Part shown: piece after piece, positions 57,756 to 64,000 of the stretch
Numbering within the stretch: the first letter of the stretch is position 1
Layout: each line of letters starts with the position of its first letter
NCBI RefSeq assembly: GCF_900142095.1
Contig: NZ_FQZP01000003.1
Location: 1-64,000, forward strand
Direction of reading: 5' to 3'
DNA length: 64,000 nt
Source of the DNA: Thermoclostridium caenicola
GTDB lineage: Bacteria; Bacillota; Clostridia; DSM-8532
The notes under the pieces: generated by a model
Told to the model about the DNA's origin: nothing
Seen by the model: the letters and a program-made list of their open reading frames with translations, nothing else
The model's database searches: none
Translations under genes and position numbers: made by a program

Positions 57756-58965
57756 CCTCACGGTCAGGGAACTTACGGCGTACATCAAGCAGTTGCTCGA
57801 CAGCGATATGTTGCTTGCCAATGTGTGCGTCACGGGCGAGATCTCCAATTTCAAGTGGCATAGTTCCGGGCACATGTATTTTTCCATCAAGGATCAGGAT
57901 GCGGTCATCCGGTGTGTCATGTTTCGGACCTATAACGCCCGCATGCGTTTTATGCCTGAGGAAGGCATGCAGGTCATTGTCCGGGGCTATGTATCGGTGT
58001 ATGCTCCCGGCGGTAACTATCAGCTGTACGTGGAGGAGATGCAGCCCGACGGCACGGGCAGCCTGTATCTGGCCTTCGAGCAGCTCAAGCGTAAGCTTGA
58101 AGCCCTGGGCTGGTTTGCCCGGGAGCGAAAGAAACCCATCCCGCAGCTTCCGCGGGCCATCGGCATCGTTACATCGCCCACGGGGGCGGTTATCCGCGAT
58201 ATGCTGAATGTCTTGCAGCGAAGGTATCCCAATGTCAGGGTCATCATCTATCCGTCCGCCGTGCAGGGTTCTGAAGCGCCTGCGCAGTTGATCCGAGGGC
58301 TCAGGTATTTCAATGAAGCGAAGAATGTGGATGTCATCATCATTGCCAGAGGCGGCGGATCCCTTGAGGATTTGTGGCCCTTCAACGATGAAGGGCTGGC
58401 ACGGGCCATCTATGAGTCAGGTATTCCGGTCATCTCTGCCGTTGGCCATGAAACCGATTTTTCCATATCTGATTTTGTAGCCGACCTGCGGGCGCCTACG
58501 CCTTCCGCCGCTGCAGAACTGGCGGTGCCCGAGAAGACAGCCCTGAAGGAGCGGCTGACGCTCTATGAGAGGAGCCTGGTCAACAGCCTGATGATGCGGC
58601 TGAAGCGGGAAAGGGAAAGAATTGCGGCCTTGTCATCCGCAAGAAGCCTTATCCGGCCCTATGAGAGGGTGGATGCGCTGCGGCAGCAATTGGACGGCAG
58701 GCTGCGGGAACTGGCCTTGCTGGGGCGATCGAAGCTGGAAAAACAACGTTCCGCTCTGGCCGGCATGGCCGGCAGGCTGGATGCGTTAAGTCCGTTGACG
58801 GTGCTGTCCCGGGGATATGCCCTCGTTCAGAAGGAAGACGGAGGCGTGGTGAAATCCATCAGGGCCATCGCGCCCGGGGAAATGATAATGGTCAGGGTGG
58901 CCGACGGACGGTTTGGGGCGAAGGTTGAAAAGCCCCTGGATGCTTTCCCTGACATAATCGGGTGA
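57748..58965 (+). CDS. xseA: Exodeoxyribonuclease VII large subunit
   Basis: Start ATG 57748 inside the end of nusB gives 405 aa. The N-terminal OB domain (VTGEISNFKWHSSGHMYFSI) is followed by the catalytic core with GSGEAPAQ-like, IIARGGGSLEDLWPFNDE and SAVGHETDFSISDFVAD motifs. A C-terminal coiled coil (about 265-350) binds XseB. ExoVII degrades single-stranded DNA from both ends. Confidence 0.95.
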   Translation: MNSLTVRELTAYIKQLLDSDMLLANVCVTGEISNFKWHSSGHMYFSIKDQDAVIRCVMFRTYNARMRFMPEEGMQVIVRGYVSVYAPGGNYQLYVEEMQPDGTGSLYLAFEQLKRKLEALGWFARERKKPIPQLPRAIGIVTSPTGAVIRDMLNVLQRRYPNVRVIIYPSAVQGSEAPAQLIRGLRYFNEAKNVDVIIIARGGGSLEDLWPFNDEGLARAIYESGIPVISAVGHETDFSISDFVADLRAPTPSAAAELAVPEKTALKERLTLYERSLVNSLMMRLKRERERIAALSSARSLIRPYERVDALRQQLDGRLRELALLGRSKLEKQRSALAGMAGRLDALSPLTVLSRGYALVQKEDGGVVKSIRAIAPGEMIMVRVADGRFGAKVEKPLDAFPDIIG

Positions 58966-59000
58966 GGGTTCGGCCAATGGAAATGAAACGGAGTGAAAGT

Positions 59001-59258
59001 ATGGCGAAGAACAATCCGGATAAGGAAAACAGGGAGCTTACTTACGAAGAGGCGGCCAATGAGCTGGAAAAAGCGATTGCCCTCCTTGAAAAGGGGGACT
59101 TGCCCCTGGAGCAGGCCATACAGGTTTTTGAAAAGGCCGTCGGATTGGTACGCCTGTGCAATATGAAGCTGGATGAGATAGAAAAGAAGATTACCGTTCT
59201 GGTTGAAGGAAAGGATGGCGTCAGGGAAACCGATTTTGTGCCTGACGGGTTATCATGA
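59001..59258 (+). CDS. xseB: Exodeoxyribonuclease VII small subunit
   Basis: Starting at ATG 59001 (RBS CGGAGTGAAAG) the product is 85 aa, the usual XseB size. Its helical hairpin reads LTYEEAANELEKAIALLEKG, then LPLEQAIQVFEKAVGL. It stabilises XseA. A GTG at 58962 would overlap xseA and is less likely. The stop overlaps ispA in ATGA. Confidence 0.94.
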   Translation: MAKNNPDKENRELTYEEAANELEKAIALLEKGDLPLEQAIQVFEKAVGLVRLCNMKLDEIEKKITVLVEGKDGVRETDFVPDGLS

Positions 59259-60142
59259 ACTATCATCAGAAATTCGATGCTTACAGGAATCTGGTAGAGG
59301 AATGGCTCAAAGAGCGCATAACCGTTCCTGAACTACCTGAAAAAACACTTTTCGAAGCGATGAGGTACAGCCTGACGGCGGGAGGAAAGAGACTTCGCCC
59401 TGTCCTGTCGCTGGCGGTCTGCGATATGCTGGGAGGAGACAGGGAAGCCGTCATGCCCTTTGCCTGTGCCGTTGAGCTGATCCATACCTATTCCCTGATC
59501 CATGACGATCTGCCCTGCATGGACAATGACGACTACAGAAGGGGGAAACCCACCAACCATAAGGTGTTTGGGGAAGCCATGGCGCTGCTGGCAGGCGATG
59601 CGCTGCTCAACACGGCTTGTGAAATCATGCTGGAAGCGGTCCTGGCCGATGAAAAGGATGCTCTCAGAAAAGCTGCTGCAGCGCGCCTGATCATGGAAGC
59701 GGCAGGAGCCTCGGGCATGATTGCCGGACAGGTTATCGATATGGAATCGGAGCAAACAGCGGTTTCCTATGATCAGCTTTGCCGCATGCACAGCCTGAAA
59801 ACAGGCGCCTTGATCCGGGCCAGCATCCTTTCGGCAGCCCTGATTTGCGGGGCCGACGAAAGGACGACACAGGCCCTGGAGCGTTATGGAAAGCTGATCG
59901 GCCTGGCTTTTCAGATTAAGGATGATCTGCTGGATGTTGAGGGGGATGCTGCCGTACTGGGCAAGAGCACCGGCAGCGATGTGAGAAACCATAAATCGAC
60001 CTTTGTGACGCTTCTGGGAACGGATAAAGCGAAAGAATTGCTGAAGTCAACGGTGGAAGAGGCTGTCAAAGCGCTGGAAGGCCTTCAGAACACCGATTTT
60101 CTGATTCATACGGCGGCCTATATTGCCGAAAGGAAAAAATAG
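59255..60142 (+). CDS. ispA: Polyprenyl (farnesyl/geranylgeranyl) diphosphate synthase
   Basis: The 295-aa protein has the first Asp-rich motif in IHDDLPCMDNDDYRRGKPT and the second in QIKDDLLDVEGD. These chelate Mg for chain elongation of isoprenyl diphosphates. The GGKRLRP and FGEAMALLAGDALL segments fit the IspA group. It shares the locus with dxs, the entry enzyme of the same pathway, with OLE RNA and its partner gene in between. Confidence 0.95.
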   Translation: MNYHQKFDAYRNLVEEWLKERITVPELPEKTLFEAMRYSLTAGGKRLRPVLSLAVCDMLGGDREAVMPFACAVELIHTYSLIHDDLPCMDNDDYRRGKPTNHKVFGEAMALLAGDALLNTACEIMLEAVLADEKDALRKAAAARLIMEAAGASGMIAGQVIDMESEQTAVSYDQLCRMHSLKTGALIRASILSAALICGADERTTQALERYGKLIGLAFQIKDDLLDVEGDAAVLGKSTGSDVRNHKSTFVTLLGTDKAKELLKSTVEEAVKALEGLQNTDFLIHTAAYIAERKK

Positions 60143-60189
60143 CGGCGACGGGTTGCCCATGGCACACCGGCGGTTGGTTTTCAGGAGAG

Positions 60190-60633
60190 ATGAACGTGAC
60201 GTTCTTTGAAGAGATCATCAATAACAAAGCCCTCATATTGCCTGTGTTTTCATGGTTCCTGGCCCAGTTCTACAAATTTCTGCACTGCCTGGTGGTCAAC
60301 AAGAAGATCGATTTCATGAAGTTTGTCAGTTCAGGGGGCATGCCCAGTTCTCACAGTGCCATCTCGGTTTGCCTGGCTACCATGATGGGTCTGCAGTACG
60401 GATTTGGATCGGGCATTTTTGCTTTTGCCGCAGTTTTTTCCTTCATTGTCATGGCCGATGCCGCCGGTGTGAGGAGAGCGGCAGGCAAACAGGCCGCGCT
60501 GCTCAATAAACTGGCCAATGCCACCAAGCAGTTCCGGCCTGAAAAGGATTTGAAGGAACTCCTGGGCCATACGCCTGTGGAGGTATTTGCCGGAGCCGCC
60601 CTGGGGATACTGGTGGCATTAGTCTTTGCATAA
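60190..60633 (+). CDS. Divergent PAP2 (DUF212) membrane protein
   Basis: The 147-aa protein has three or four membrane helices and the DUF212 signature SSGGMPSSHSAISVCLA, a relative of the PAP2 phosphatase SRSxH motif. GHTPVEVFAGAALGI closes the protein. It may act on lipid or isoprenoid phosphates, which would fit the isoprenoid locus; the activity is unproven. The RBS is AGGAGAGA. The -35 of the OLE promoter overlaps the end of the gene. Confidence 0.88.
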   Translation: MNVTFFEEIINNKALILPVFSWFLAQFYKFLHCLVVNKKIDFMKFVSSGGMPSSHSAISVCLATMMGLQYGFGSGIFAFAAVFSFIVMADAAGVRRAAGKQAALLNKLANATKQFRPEKDLKELLGHTPVEVFAGAALGILVALVFA

Positions 60634-60654
60634 CGTCCCGGTTTGTTGTATAAT
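60626..60654 (+). promoter_or_regulatory. Sigma-A-like promoter for OLE RNA
   Basis: TTGCAT at 60626-60631, a 17-bp spacer and TATAAT at 60649-60654 give an expected start near 60661. It overlaps the last codons of the DUF212 gene. Confidence 0.75.
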
Positions 60655-60660
60655 ATTCTT

Positions 60661-61290
60661 CCAAAGCAAACACCAGGATGGCGCAGTATCCTAGTCAGTA
60701 CTGCCTGGTTTGAAGACGGGCCTAAAAATCCGTTAAAGGGCACATCGATGAAGTTCCTTGTGCCGGCTTGTTACGCCCAGTGATGGGTCGGTGCTGGGAG
60801 TTAAGGTTCAGGGGCAGCCCGCAATGGCATGCGGGTGGCGACCCCTTTACCGCGGAGACCCCCGGCTGTGGGAGACAGATTGCCCGCTTTACAGCGGTAG
60901 AGATCTTGACTACGGCGGGGGATAGAACCTGTTTTGCGGTATCGCTTACGATGCTGTGAACAGTGTAGCCTGCCTTGAGTGCGGTCTGGAGGATAGCAGA
61001 TCAGGTGTTGATGTACTGGCCGGTACATGAGCACTATTGCTGCTTGAAACCATCTGTGCAAAAGAGGCTAGAACCAGGTAAGACTCCCGGGGAAAACCCC
61101 TAGGCTGTTGATATCCAGGTATTCCGGGGATTGCAGTGTGTACTTAGTGGCAATCAGGCCTTGAGCTGGGCAACCGCTCAACTGCGGGAGTAAAGGGAAA
61201 CCGCCAGGACGGCGACGTCCTGGTACCCTCTGGGGAAAACCTGCCTGACCTAAGGCGCAAAATTTACTCGGAGTACTGCCATCCTGTGTT
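60661..61290 (+). ncRNA. OLE RNA (ornate, large, extremophilic RNA)
   Basis: A 630-nt non-coding stretch lies between ispA-DUF212 and dxs, the known OLE locus, and is the size of OLE RNA. The ends are joined by a long-range helix: AGGATGGC at 60675-60682 pairs with GCCATCCT at 61279-61286, extended inward by AGTA/TACT. Internal hairpins include CCCGCA/TGCGGG nested in AGGGG/CCCCT (about 60810-60847) and CCAGGAC/GTCCTGG (about 61204-61223). GGAAAACC blocks in purine-rich joints recur. Overlapping ORFs in the segment lack RBSs. OLE RNA forms a membrane RNP with OapA and helps tolerance to alcohols, cold and Mg stress in known hosts. Boundaries are by eye. Confidence 0.88.
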
Positions 61291-61310
61291 TTTATTGAAA
61301 AGTTGGCAGG

Positions 61311-61338
61311 AGAAGCGTTTCATCGTTTCTCTTTTCTG
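61311..61338 (+). terminator. Candidate intrinsic terminator between OLE RNA and oapA
   Basis: GAGAAGCG (61311-61318) pairs with CGTTTCTC (61325-61332, one G-T pair) around TTTCAT and is followed by TTTTCTGTT. It would let OLE RNA be made alone from its promoter, with read-through to oapA and dxs. Confidence 0.6.
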
Positions 61339-61400
61339 TTGTTGATTAACGCTGAAAGCAGGATGCTTGTTTGGGTAAAGCAGGAACTGAGCAGGAATAC

Positions 61401-62003
61401 ATGAAGCAAACGGATAAATACAAGAAGGCCTCCAGGCAGAACATACCCGTCAAACGGAAAACCGGCTTTGAAAAAAGGCATGTTCTATGGGGGATTTTTA
61501 TTACCGTCTTTTCTTTCGGGCTGTCACTGCTTGTCCTTTTTGCGTCGACCGGGCTGCTGGGAGAAGCCCAGCCGGCTTTCTCATTTGTTGTGGTGCTGGT
61601 GATCATCTTCACCGGCGTCGTGTTCGACGTGATAGGCATCGCGGTTACGGCAGCCGACGAAACGCCTTTCCATTCCATGGCCTCCAAAAAAATCAGGGGG
61701 GCCAGGCAGTCCCTGATCCTGATCCGCAACGCACCACGGGTATCCAGTTTCTGCAATGATGTGGTTGGGGACATATGCGGTGTTGTGAGCGGCGTTGCAG
61801 GGACATCCATCGTGTACAGGCTGTTTGCCGCAAGCGGTGATATTTCGCTGATAGAAACCATCACAGGCGCGCTGATAGCAGCGTTCACGGTCGGGGGGAA
61901 GGCTTTCGCGAAAAATATCGGCATGAATAACAGCAACTATATTGTTTACTGGGTCGGCAGAATTCTTTCCTGCTTTTATTTTGGAAAGCGAAAAAGGGGT
62001 TAG
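61401..62003 (+). CDS. oapA: OLE-associated membrane protein OapA
   Basis: Start ATG 61401 (AGGAA upstream) gives 200 aa; TTG 61371 in frame is possible. A basic N-terminal tail (about 1-27) is followed by four or five hydrophobic helices (about 28-52, 58-84, 127-145, 153-170 and 178-195). DVIGIAVTAADETPFHSMASKK lies in the loop after helix 2, and DVVGD (Asp120 and Asp124) gives the DxxxD motif reported for OapA. Position between OLE RNA and dxs is decisive. It binds OLE RNA at the membrane in studied species. Confidence 0.85.
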   Translation: MKQTDKYKKASRQNIPVKRKTGFEKRHVLWGIFITVFSFGLSLLVLFASTGLLGEAQPAFSFVVVLVIIFTGVVFDVIGIAVTAADETPFHSMASKKIRGARQSLILIRNAPRVSSFCNDVVGDICGVVSGVAGTSIVYRLFAASGDISLIETITGALIAAFTVGGKAFAKNIGMNNSNYIVYWVGRILSCFYFGKRKRG

Positions 62004-62005
62004 AG

Positions 62006-63940
62006 GTGTTCCGTTTGAACCGGAAAAATCACGCAAACAGCTTATTGAGCACCATTACCGGACCTGAAGATATAAAGAGGCTGAGCATACGGGAATTGAT
62101 CGCCTTAAGCGGTGAGATCAGGGAGTTCCTGATCAACACCGTTTCCAATACCGGTGGGCACATCGCCCCCAATCTGGGCGTTGTGGAGCTGACGCTGGCT
62201 CTTCATCGTGTCTATGATACGCCAAGGGACAAGATCATCTGGGATGTGGGGCATCAGACCTATGTCCACAAGATCCTGACGGGCAGGAAGGACAGGTTCC
62301 ACACCCTCAGACAGATGGACGGCCTTTCGGGGTTCCCCAAGACGGAGGAAAGCGAATACGACGCTTTCAATACCGGGCACAGCTCCACTTCCATATCGGC
62401 CGCCCTCGGCATGGCGCGGGCCCGTGATCTGAAGGGGGAGAACTATCATGTGGCGGCTGTCATCGGCGACGGGGCCCTTACGGGCGGCATGGCCTTTGAA
62501 GCCCTGAACGACGCGGGCAATGCCAGGACAAATCTGCTCATCGTTCTCAATGATAACGGCATGTCCATCGCGCCCAACGTGGGCGGCATCTCCCGGTACT
62601 TAAGCCGCCTGCGTATGAGGCCTTTCTATTATAAAACCAGGGAATCGATACAGTCCCTGCTGGACAGGAAGCTTCCCAAATCCGGAAAGCATGTGCGCAG
62701 GATCCTTCATCGCATCAAAAGCACCATGAAAAGCTTTCTCATGCCTTCCATGTTTTTCGAGGATCTGGGGTTCAGGTATTTTGGTCCCATAGACGGGCAT
62801 AATATCCGGGAAATGATCAGGGTTCTGGAGCATGCCAGGACCATGAAAGGACCGGTCCTGGTCCATGTGTGCACAGTAAAAGGGAAGGGCTACAGGTACG
62901 CTGAAGAAAAGCCCAATGTTTTTCATGGCATTGCGCCTTTCGAGATTGAAACGGGCGAACTTAAAAATAATGGCGGCGAGAGCTATTCGCAAGTCTTTGG
63001 CAGAAAGATCTGCGAGCTGGCCAAGGACGATCCGGACATTGTGGCCATAACTGCCGCCATGCCAGACGGTACCGGCCTCAACCCGTTCAGGGAGTCCTTT
63101 TCCAGGCGCTTTTACGATGTGGGTATTGCCGAACAGCATGCGGTGACCTTTGCCGCCGGGCTGGCCAAGGGAGGCATCAAGCCCGTTGTGGCCATCTACT
63201 CCACCTTCCTGCAGCGCGCGTATGATCAAATGCTCCATGATGTTGCCCTGCAGAATCTCCATGTGGTTTTTGCCATTGACCGGGCCGGTGTGGTGGGGGA
63301 TGATGGTGAGACCCACCAGGGCATATATGACATCGCCTATATCAAGACCATGCCCAACTTCACCCTCATGGCTCCCGCTTCTCCCAGGGAACTGGAGATG
63401 ATGCTGGCATATGCCGTTTCAGTTCACAAGGGTCCGATAGCCATCCGGTATCCCCGCGGGACCGGTTCCGAAATAGAAGCCCTGAAGCAGCCCATCACCT
63501 ATGGAAAGGGGTTGGTTGTCAGGGAGGGGAAGGATGTCACCCTCGTTGCCCCGGGGAACTTCCTGCGCATGGCGCTGAAAACCGCGGCTCTCCTGGAAGA
63601 GGAAGGTATCAGCTGCGAGGTGATCAATCCCCGGTTTATCAAGCCTCTGGATAAACAGCTGCTCAGGACATCCATAGGCAAAACCGGACGGGTTGTTGTG
63701 ATGGAGGATGGTATCGTAAGCGGCGGTTTCGGCAGCAGTGTCCTGGAATTCCTCAATGGGGAGAGGATCCCTGCCCGGTCGCTATTGATGGGATTTCCCG
63801 ATGAACCCATACCCCATGGGGATCGGAACCTGCTCTACAGGAAGTACGGACTGGATCCCCAGGCCATGAGGGATCGGATACGGGATTTCCTGAAGGCTTC
63901 AGGAAAAAAGGAGGACGGGCATGCAAAAGGAACGCCTTGA
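62006..63940 (+). CDS. dxs: 1-deoxy-D-xylulose-5-phosphate synthase
   Basis: The 644-aa transketolase-like enzyme makes DXP from pyruvate and glyceraldehyde phosphate, the first step of the MEP isoprenoid pathway. GGHIAPNLGVVELT, WDVGHQTYVHKIL, the TPP motif GDGALTGGMAFEALN, and DVGIAEQHAVTFAAGLA with the catalytic Glu are present. The GTG at 62006 lies just after the oapA stop and behind AAGGGG. It overlaps the next gene by 20 bp. Confidence 0.97.
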   Translation: MFRLNRKNHANSLLSTITGPEDIKRLSIRELIALSGEIREFLINTVSNTGGHIAPNLGVVELTLALHRVYDTPRDKIIWDVGHQTYVHKILTGRKDRFHTLRQMDGLSGFPKTEESEYDAFNTGHSSTSISAALGMARARDLKGENYHVAAVIGDGALTGGMAFEALNDAGNARTNLLIVLNDNGMSIAPNVGGISRYLSRLRMRPFYYKTRESIQSLLDRKLPKSGKHVRRILHRIKSTMKSFLMPSMFFEDLGFRYFGPIDGHNIREMIRVLEHARTMKGPVLVHVCTVKGKGYRYAEEKPNVFHGIAPFEIETGELKNNGGESYSQVFGRKICELAKDDPDIVAITAAMPDGTGLNPFRESFSRRFYDVGIAEQHAVTFAAGLAKGGIKPVVAIYSTFLQRAYDQMLHDVALQNLHVVFAIDRAGVVGDDGETHQGIYDIAYIKTMPNFTLMAPASPRELEMMLAYAVSVHKGPIAIRYPRGTGSEIEALKQPITYGKGLVVREGKDVTLVAPGNFLRMALKTAALLEEEGISCEVINPRFIKPLDKQLLRTSIGKTGRVVVMEDGIVSGGFGSSVLEFLNGERIPARSLLMGFPDEPIPHGDRNLLYRKYGLDPQAMRDRIRDFLKASGKKEDGHAKGTP

Positions 63941-64000
63941 TGTGCTCCTGGTGAACAGGCAGTTTTTTGAGAGCAGGGAAAAGGCCAGACGCGCCATCAT
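63921..64000 (+). CDS. TlyA-like S4-domain RNA methyltransferase (partial, cut by window end)
   Basis: ATG 63921 follows AAAGGAGG. The visible 26 residues (MQKERLDVLLVNRQFFESRE, then KARRAIM) match the N-terminal S4 RNA-binding domain of TlyA/hemolysin-A-like 2'-O-methyltransferases. In Firmicutes this gene commonly follows dxs. The rest lies beyond the window. Confidence 0.85.
   Translation, partial: MQKERLDVLLVNRQFFESREKARRAI

Follow-up and report, generated by a model that had tools for sequence, protein, structure and literature searches.

The window analysed here, 64,000 nucleotides (nt) of the Thermoclostridium caenicola genome (contig NZ_FQZP01000003.1, positions 1 to 64,000 of the forward strand), almost certainly carries a complete, canonical OLE ribonucleoprotein (RNP) locus, composed of the gene for the OLE RNA (ole) and the gene for the membrane protein OapA (oapA). 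OLE has been catalogued in thousands of genomes, and the window OLE is an ordinary member of this known class. Overall, the locus is probably best explained as a canonical OLE RNP locus in which the RNA may serve as the regulatory part of a CNNM-type OapA.

The OLE RNA

In a scan of positions 58000-64000, Rfam gives one match, to RF01071 (OLE), at 60662-61298 (+), with no competing RNA family at the site. The match (518.9 bits, E 2.4e-150) covers the complete model (1-616), with neither end cut, and its score exceeds the gathering cut-off of 50 bits by a factor of ten. A preliminary description of this DNA had proposed an OLE RNA of about 630 nt together with OapA. The RNA found is 637 nt long, and the RF01071 match, the identity of OapA, its DxxxD motif and its CNNM-like predicted fold all support that interpretation. 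Only a single copy of OLE is found in a search of the whole genome (125 contigs, 99.98% complete).

The RNA has a folding z-score of -6.3 (single strand, compared with 20 dinucleotide shuffles). For comparative analysis, we aligned 82 distinct OLE RNAs taken from the fetched loci. At least 97% conservation is seen at 169 of the 637 positions (26%), in agreement with the published value of about 25% highly conserved positions (PMC12265935), and the window OLE has zero deviations at columns conserved to at least 90%. Apparent insertions within the OLE of one relative (L046, genome G029) are runs of N, an assembly artefact.

The size, complexity and extreme conservation of OLE resemble those of large ribozymes, and a ribozyme proposal has been published (PMC11332333). 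OLE would then be, for example, a stress-linked synthase (e.g., for c-di-AMP), with OapA merely as its membrane anchor. However, no OLE reaction is on record in the cited OLE literature, and we consider a ribozyme unlikely; a shortened OLE described below also bears on it.

The window locus resembles the Halalkalibacterium halodurans OLE-OapA system and the full-length class of RF01071 in length, complete consensus structure, highly conserved nucleotides and possession of its own promoter. As in H. halodurans, oapA lies directly downstream, OapB, OapC and bS21 are encoded in the genome, and isoprenoid genes and nusB-xse are neighbours. The window OLE differs from the Rfam model in a longer variable arm tip near 60884-60903 (a 19-nt insert) and from the full-length class, H. 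halodurans OLE included, in a genus-specific hairpin past the 3' end; there is no difference of kind. OLE variants 1 and 2 (PMC11332333) belong to the same family and have the same gene association, but shorten or lack P7-P9 and the OapB-site hairpin, which the window OLE keeps complete. GOLLD and ROOL are likewise large ornate bacterial RNAs, but cmscan gives no match to either, and they differ in structure and in their phage setting.

Secondary structure and contact sites

The structure in RF01071 leaves the first 53 and the last 21 positions unpaired. When the 5' end was scanned without bias for pairing with the 3' half, the terminal closing helix ranked first, with seven of eight pairs covarying (Table 1). 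An 8-bp long-range closing helix had been proposed for the window RNA, and covariation bears it out. Across the 82 RNAs, 595 of 656 cells of 60675-60682/61278-61285 (8 bp) are paired, compared with 479 ± 7 (maximum 502) in 500 shuffles in which the 3' strands are swapped between species, and with 184-256 when the helix is slid by one or two bases. The third result of the scan is the CAG...CCUAG/CUAGRCUG helix, in which the pair 60690-61104 is C-G in 42 sequences and U-A in 40, and the remaining pairs are nearly invariant.

The second result, which by its position is P3, is a helix that connects to domain 1; all seven of its pairs covary and 93% of cells are paired. The maintenance of this P3-like helix by covariation in the 82 RNAs favors a model, for which a structural argument has been published (PMC12265935), in which OLE is an integral membrane RNA whose P3 spans the bilayer, with domain 1 on one side and domain 2 on the other. 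We regard this model as improbable, and the evidence that speaks against it comes from the shortened OLE described below.

Both of the dimer contact sequences, the A-rich L4 and the GGCC tip of P9, are present in the window OLE, which, judged by these motifs, may dimerise. The tip of P9 carries GGCC, GAUC or AGCU in 80 of the 82 RNAs.

Table 1. Features of the OLE locus, its neighbours and the mini-OLEs. Positions are those of the window unless another locus is named.
Feature	Position	Strand	Basis or remark
OLE RNA gene (ole), full length, 637 nt	60662..61298	+	RF01071
Sigma-70 type ole promoter, TTTGCA - 18 nt - TATAAT	60625..60654	+	10/12 consensus matches
Terminal closing helix	60675-60683 pairs 61277-61285	+	covariation in 82 sequences; outside Rfam structure
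CAG-UAU-CCUAG strand	60684..60694 pairs CUAG(R)CUG at 61100-61107	+	outside Rfam structure
Helix leading to domain 1 (P3 by position)	60704-60710 pairs 61072-61078	+	outside Rfam structure
A-rich loop CCUAAAAAUCC (L4, published dimer bridge B1)	60720..60731	+	identical to Rfam consensus; role from PMC12286853
CACAUCGAUGAAG, one side of OapC-bound kink turn	60741..60753	+	identical to Rfam consensus; role from PMC9723947, PMC12286853
Tip of long P9 arm, palindrome GGCC (published symmetric kissing loop, bridge B3)	61013..61026	+	role from PMC12286853
Hairpin of 3' part (P12-P13 region, published OapB site)	61204..61223	+	paired in RF01071 alignment; role from PMC9723947
10-bp hairpin then U-rich stretch, between ole and oapA	61308..61333	+	candidate partial terminator or 3' processing element
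Shine-Dalgarno region of oapA, within GAAAGCAGGAT	61357..61364	+	motif kept in nearly all members of genus and sister genus
oapA, TTG start, 210 aa, four long hydrophobic helices, DxxxD (D130, D134)	61371..62003	+	alignment of 25 OapA proteins
ispA, polyprenyl synthetase	59255..60142	+	Pfam PF00348, E 2.3e-60
DUF212 (divergent PAP2 family) membrane protein	60190..60633	+	Pfam PF02681, E 1.5e-47
dxs (1-deoxy-D-xylulose-5-phosphate synthase), GTG start	62006..63940	+	Pfam DXP_synthase_N, E 2.3e-127
Mini-OLE of G065	L153:1540-1778 (G065:C45)		RF01071 partial match
Mini-OLE of G106	L154:2112-2358 (G106:C24)		RF01071 partial match

OapA and its partners

The membrane protein with the DxxxD motif is OapA, as had been proposed; its identity to OapA proteins encoded next to OLE ranges from 83% down to about 40%. 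The closest named relatives by OapA are 'Clostridiaceae bacterium' metagenome-assembled genomes (81-83% identity), which give no indication of an extremophilic organism. Its start had been placed at ATG 61401. Because this codon is ATA in many relatives and the Shine-Dalgarno sequence within GAAAGCAGGAT is conserved across two genera, the real start is TTG 61371.

The motif F.NDVxGD is invariant, and D130 and D134 are present in 25 of 25 OapA proteins. Substitution of both D100 and D104 by alanine in H. halodurans OapA yields the dominant-negative PM1 protein (PMC9723947). Judging from the spacing, D100 and D104 are probably the same DxxxD pair as D130 and D134.

NCBIfam assigns no name to the protein, and a sequence-profile comparison with PDB gives no match. 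In a Pfam scan of the 210 residues, CNNM is matched at 24.1 bits (E 3.2e-5), under the 28.4-bit cut-off, and no further domain (CBS, CorC) is found. An AlphaFold2 model has a mean pLDDT of 78.7. In a fold comparison with PDB, the six best places are all taken by transmembrane domains of the CNNM/CorB/CorC type, with MtCorB (7m1t/7m1u) and CorC (7cff/7cfg) among them, at probabilities of 0.91-1.00. OapA is thus predicted to share a CNNM-like transmembrane fold with the CNNM family Mg2+ transporters MpfA, CorB and CorC, but differs from them in having DxxxD, in lacking the CBS and CorC domains and in its sub-threshold Pfam score. The predicted fold repeats, for the window protein, the published OapA-MpfA relation (PMC11332333); the invariant DxxxD and the CNNM-like fold are both published OapA traits.

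The known partners are encoded elsewhere in the genome. OapB (YbzG, 101 aa) lies between map and infA, and its best PDB match is 7k9b, 'OLE-associated protein B' (E 3.4e-14). OapC, an 85-aa protein of the YbxF type, is encoded ahead of rpsL-rpsG-fusA and has a YbxF match of E 3e-12. In addition, bS21 is present (PF01165, E 2.2e-22). With OapA, OapB, OapC and bS21 all encoded, the OLE RNP is complete and canonical.

Proposed mechanism

In the mechanism that we propose, transcription of ole would start at its own promoter, probably supplemented by read-through of the nusB-dxs operon, and would give an RNA of about 637 nt. As in characterised members, OLE would dimerise and bind an OapA dimer at the membrane; the kink turn would be occupied by OapC and P12-P13 by OapB, with P6 as a possible docking site of bS21. 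We tentatively suggest that OapA is a CNNM-type membrane domain without the CBS and CorC domains of MpfA and that the OLE RNA and its partners supply the regulatory part, which would couple the state of the membrane and of translation to the handling of Mg2+ and other metals under stress. The RNA has already been proposed as the regulatory counterpart of the domains missing from OapA (PMC11332333), and the OLE dimer has been published (PMC12286853), as have 2:1 binding of OapA, membrane localisation, the OapC kink turn, bS21, and cold, alcohol and Mg2+ phenotypes (PMC9723947, PMC12054373, PMC12265935).

Four points weigh against this interpretation. First, expression, membrane localisation and metal transport are presumed for this locus by analogy. 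Second, the Foldseek E-values for OapA are weak, the best being 0.015. Third, two MpfA-sized CNNM proteins (437 and 451 aa; G000:C1:137684-138256 and C32:405-989; classed by CNNM domain and size) are encoded besides OapA. Therefore, OapA is not the sole CNNM-type protein, and the OLE/MpfA anticorrelation (MpfA absent or at most one copy), a published tendency rather than a defining feature, fails in this genome. Fourth, orphan OapA proteins in reduced genomes, described below, suggest that OapA may not always need the RNA.

Promoter and the ole-oapA intergenic region

The -35 hexamer of the ole promoter overlaps the end of the DUF212 gene, and transcription is expected to start near 60661. A promoter of this quality is expected by chance once per 2 kb. 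Both hexamers and their spacing are kept in five of five genus members, and the conserved promoter is in line with the published separate ole promoter (PMC9723947).

The hairpin downstream of ole is kept in five of five genus members and is absent from the sister genus. We rejected it as a general terminator, since it is confined to one genus and changes on both sides occur in just 1 of 17 predicted pairs, and regard it as a local element. In the window, the oapA Shine-Dalgarno sequence (CAGGAUG) is complementary to the closing helix in its 3' strand (CAUCCUG), as a switch between the two would require. We rejected such a switch: the Shine-Dalgarno sequence does not follow changes of the closing strand in three relatives (L038, L043 and L044), the pairing is absent in other genera, and the complementarity is a chance result of Shine-Dalgarno likeness.

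OLE could in principle be just a cis-acting leader or attenuator of oapA-dxs, as it is encoded upstream of oapA in the sense orientation, with the genus-specific hairpin and the Shine-Dalgarno sequence directly downstream. However, a promoter of its own precedes ole, no terminator is conserved, and the membrane localisation and protein binding of OLE in trans have been published. Moreover, OLE lies 2.4 kb and about 5 kb from oapA in two Oscillospiraceae (L099 and L080), with a large gene between, indicating that adjacency is not required, and the mini-OLE of G065 (see below) is convergent with oapA. These two arrangements indicate that OLE can act in trans, and we consider a purely cis-acting role very improbable.

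Gene neighbourhood and natural loss

The gene order nusB-xseA-xseB-ispA-DUF212-ole-oapA-dxs is found as the preliminary description had it, with the corrected GTG start of dxs (62006) 2 nt past the oapA stop. The order xseA-xseB-ispA-(DUF212)-ole-oapA-dxs is common to relatives. We compared 80 OapA loci, many of them truncated by contig ends. In 72 of these dxs adjoins oapA, in 48 ispA is seen no more than 4 kb upstream, and the commonest complete order is nusB-xseA-xseB-ispA-(DUF212)-oapA-dxs. The window offers one more intact OLE locus, from an anaerobic clostridial lineage and with ole tightly among isoprenoid genes, which is useful comparative material and unsurprising.

OLE is detected at first pass in 108 of 110 fetched loci. 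Two candidates for OapA without OLE were rejected: the L061 locus is cut by a contig end with the 3' end of OLE still visible, and in the L080 genome OLE stands upstream of oapA at a distance of about 5 kb. A large lipoprotein-like open reading frame of 768-879 aa stands upstream of oapA in the two Oscillospiraceae (L099:1574-3880 and L080:1242-3881).

OLE is present in 42 of 61 relatives. An RF01071 search finds no OLE in a closed genome (G012) of the same family as the window. In this genome (locus L120), the order ispA-DUF212-dxs is unbroken, and DUF212 and dxs are about 180 bp apart. The intergenic DNA to either side matches that of a sister that carries OLE (L026), and the gap in the alignment corresponds to ole and oapA together; the two genes have been lost as a unit. 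A natural and clean deletion of ole and oapA in a closed genome provides a ready comparison for the role of the complex.

OapA without detectable OLE

A small-genome relative (G037) has OapA, and no OLE is found in it, including in a re-search with laxer filters. In its reduced-genome family, OapA is present in 31 of 59 genomes and OLE in 18 of 59. In 13 genomes of this family with OapA, there is no RF01071 match; G037 was searched with laxer filters and the others by the surroundings of oapA at E 0.1, which came out empty. OLE and OapA have been called almost completely mutually inclusive (PMC11332333); the 13 genomes are either exceptions or carriers of diverged, hidden RNAs.

DxxGD is intact in the orphan OapA proteins (L125, L156-L163, L165-L169) of the 13 genomes. 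One genome (G096) encodes two OapAs, one adjoining OLE and one orphan beside an L20 leader, an arrangement also seen in G037. A candidate residue separating OLE-linked from orphan OapA was rejected: the N of FCND is replaced across the whole reduced-genome family regardless of OLE. OapA without OLE, if true, would reveal what the protein does by itself.

Mini-OLE

A shortened OLE of about 235 nt, which we call mini-OLE, is found in two congeneric species of genome-reduced Clostridia (G065 and G106), both of which encode OapA. The two genomes are drafts, 90% and 76% complete, respectively. RF01071 scores are 106.9 bits in G065 and 95.9 bits in G106, with just the 3' half of the model matched, in 217 nt. 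A promoter-like TATAAT is followed by GGTGCAGTATCCTAG, a short hairpin, the whole of domain 2 and the closing helix. Thus, P1, P2 and domain 2 are kept, and domain 1 (P4-P9) is replaced by the small hairpin, TTCTTG-ACCC-CAAGAG in G065 and GCTC-GTAA-GAGT in G106. The closing helix, GCAAAGGT/ACCTTTGC in G065 and TGACGGT/ACCGTCA in G106, shows compensatory changes. The two RNAs are about 70% identical and their flanks differ; oapA is adjacent and convergent in G065 and lies on a separate contig in G106.

A survey of 309 genomes of the reduced-genome family gives no third case. Short OLE matches in G324 and G367 were rejected as mini-OLEs, both ending at contig ends. The published OLE survey dropped matches under 235 bits (PMC11332333), so RNAs of the mini-OLE type would have been missed there.

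The mini-OLE bears on two of the alternatives above. For OLE as a ribozyme, the persistence of an OLE without domain 1 in two species requires the active site used there to be in domain 2. For OLE as a membrane-spanning RNA, the proposal requires a P3 of about 14 bp, but P3 of the mini-OLE, whose function is putative, is cut down to about 4-7 bp and leads to no domain 1. One possible reading, which we hold with reserve, is that OLE consists of two separable modules, that an RNA without the kink turn, the dimer interface and the OapA and bS21 sites works in a genus that encodes OapA, that domain 2 would be the minimal functional core, and that the model of a membrane-spanning P3 would fail for that lineage. 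The mini-OLE would then allow domain 2 to be studied alone. The mini-OLE, the natural loss of ole and oapA, and the orphan OapA each bear on the role of OLE and would matter more than the window locus; among them, the mini-OLE is the part most worth a second look.

Other RNAs in the window

A scan of the whole window with Rfam at gathering thresholds yields OLE and the bacterial large signal recognition particle RNA (RF01854, 35086-35351 (+), 197.3 bits), and nothing else.

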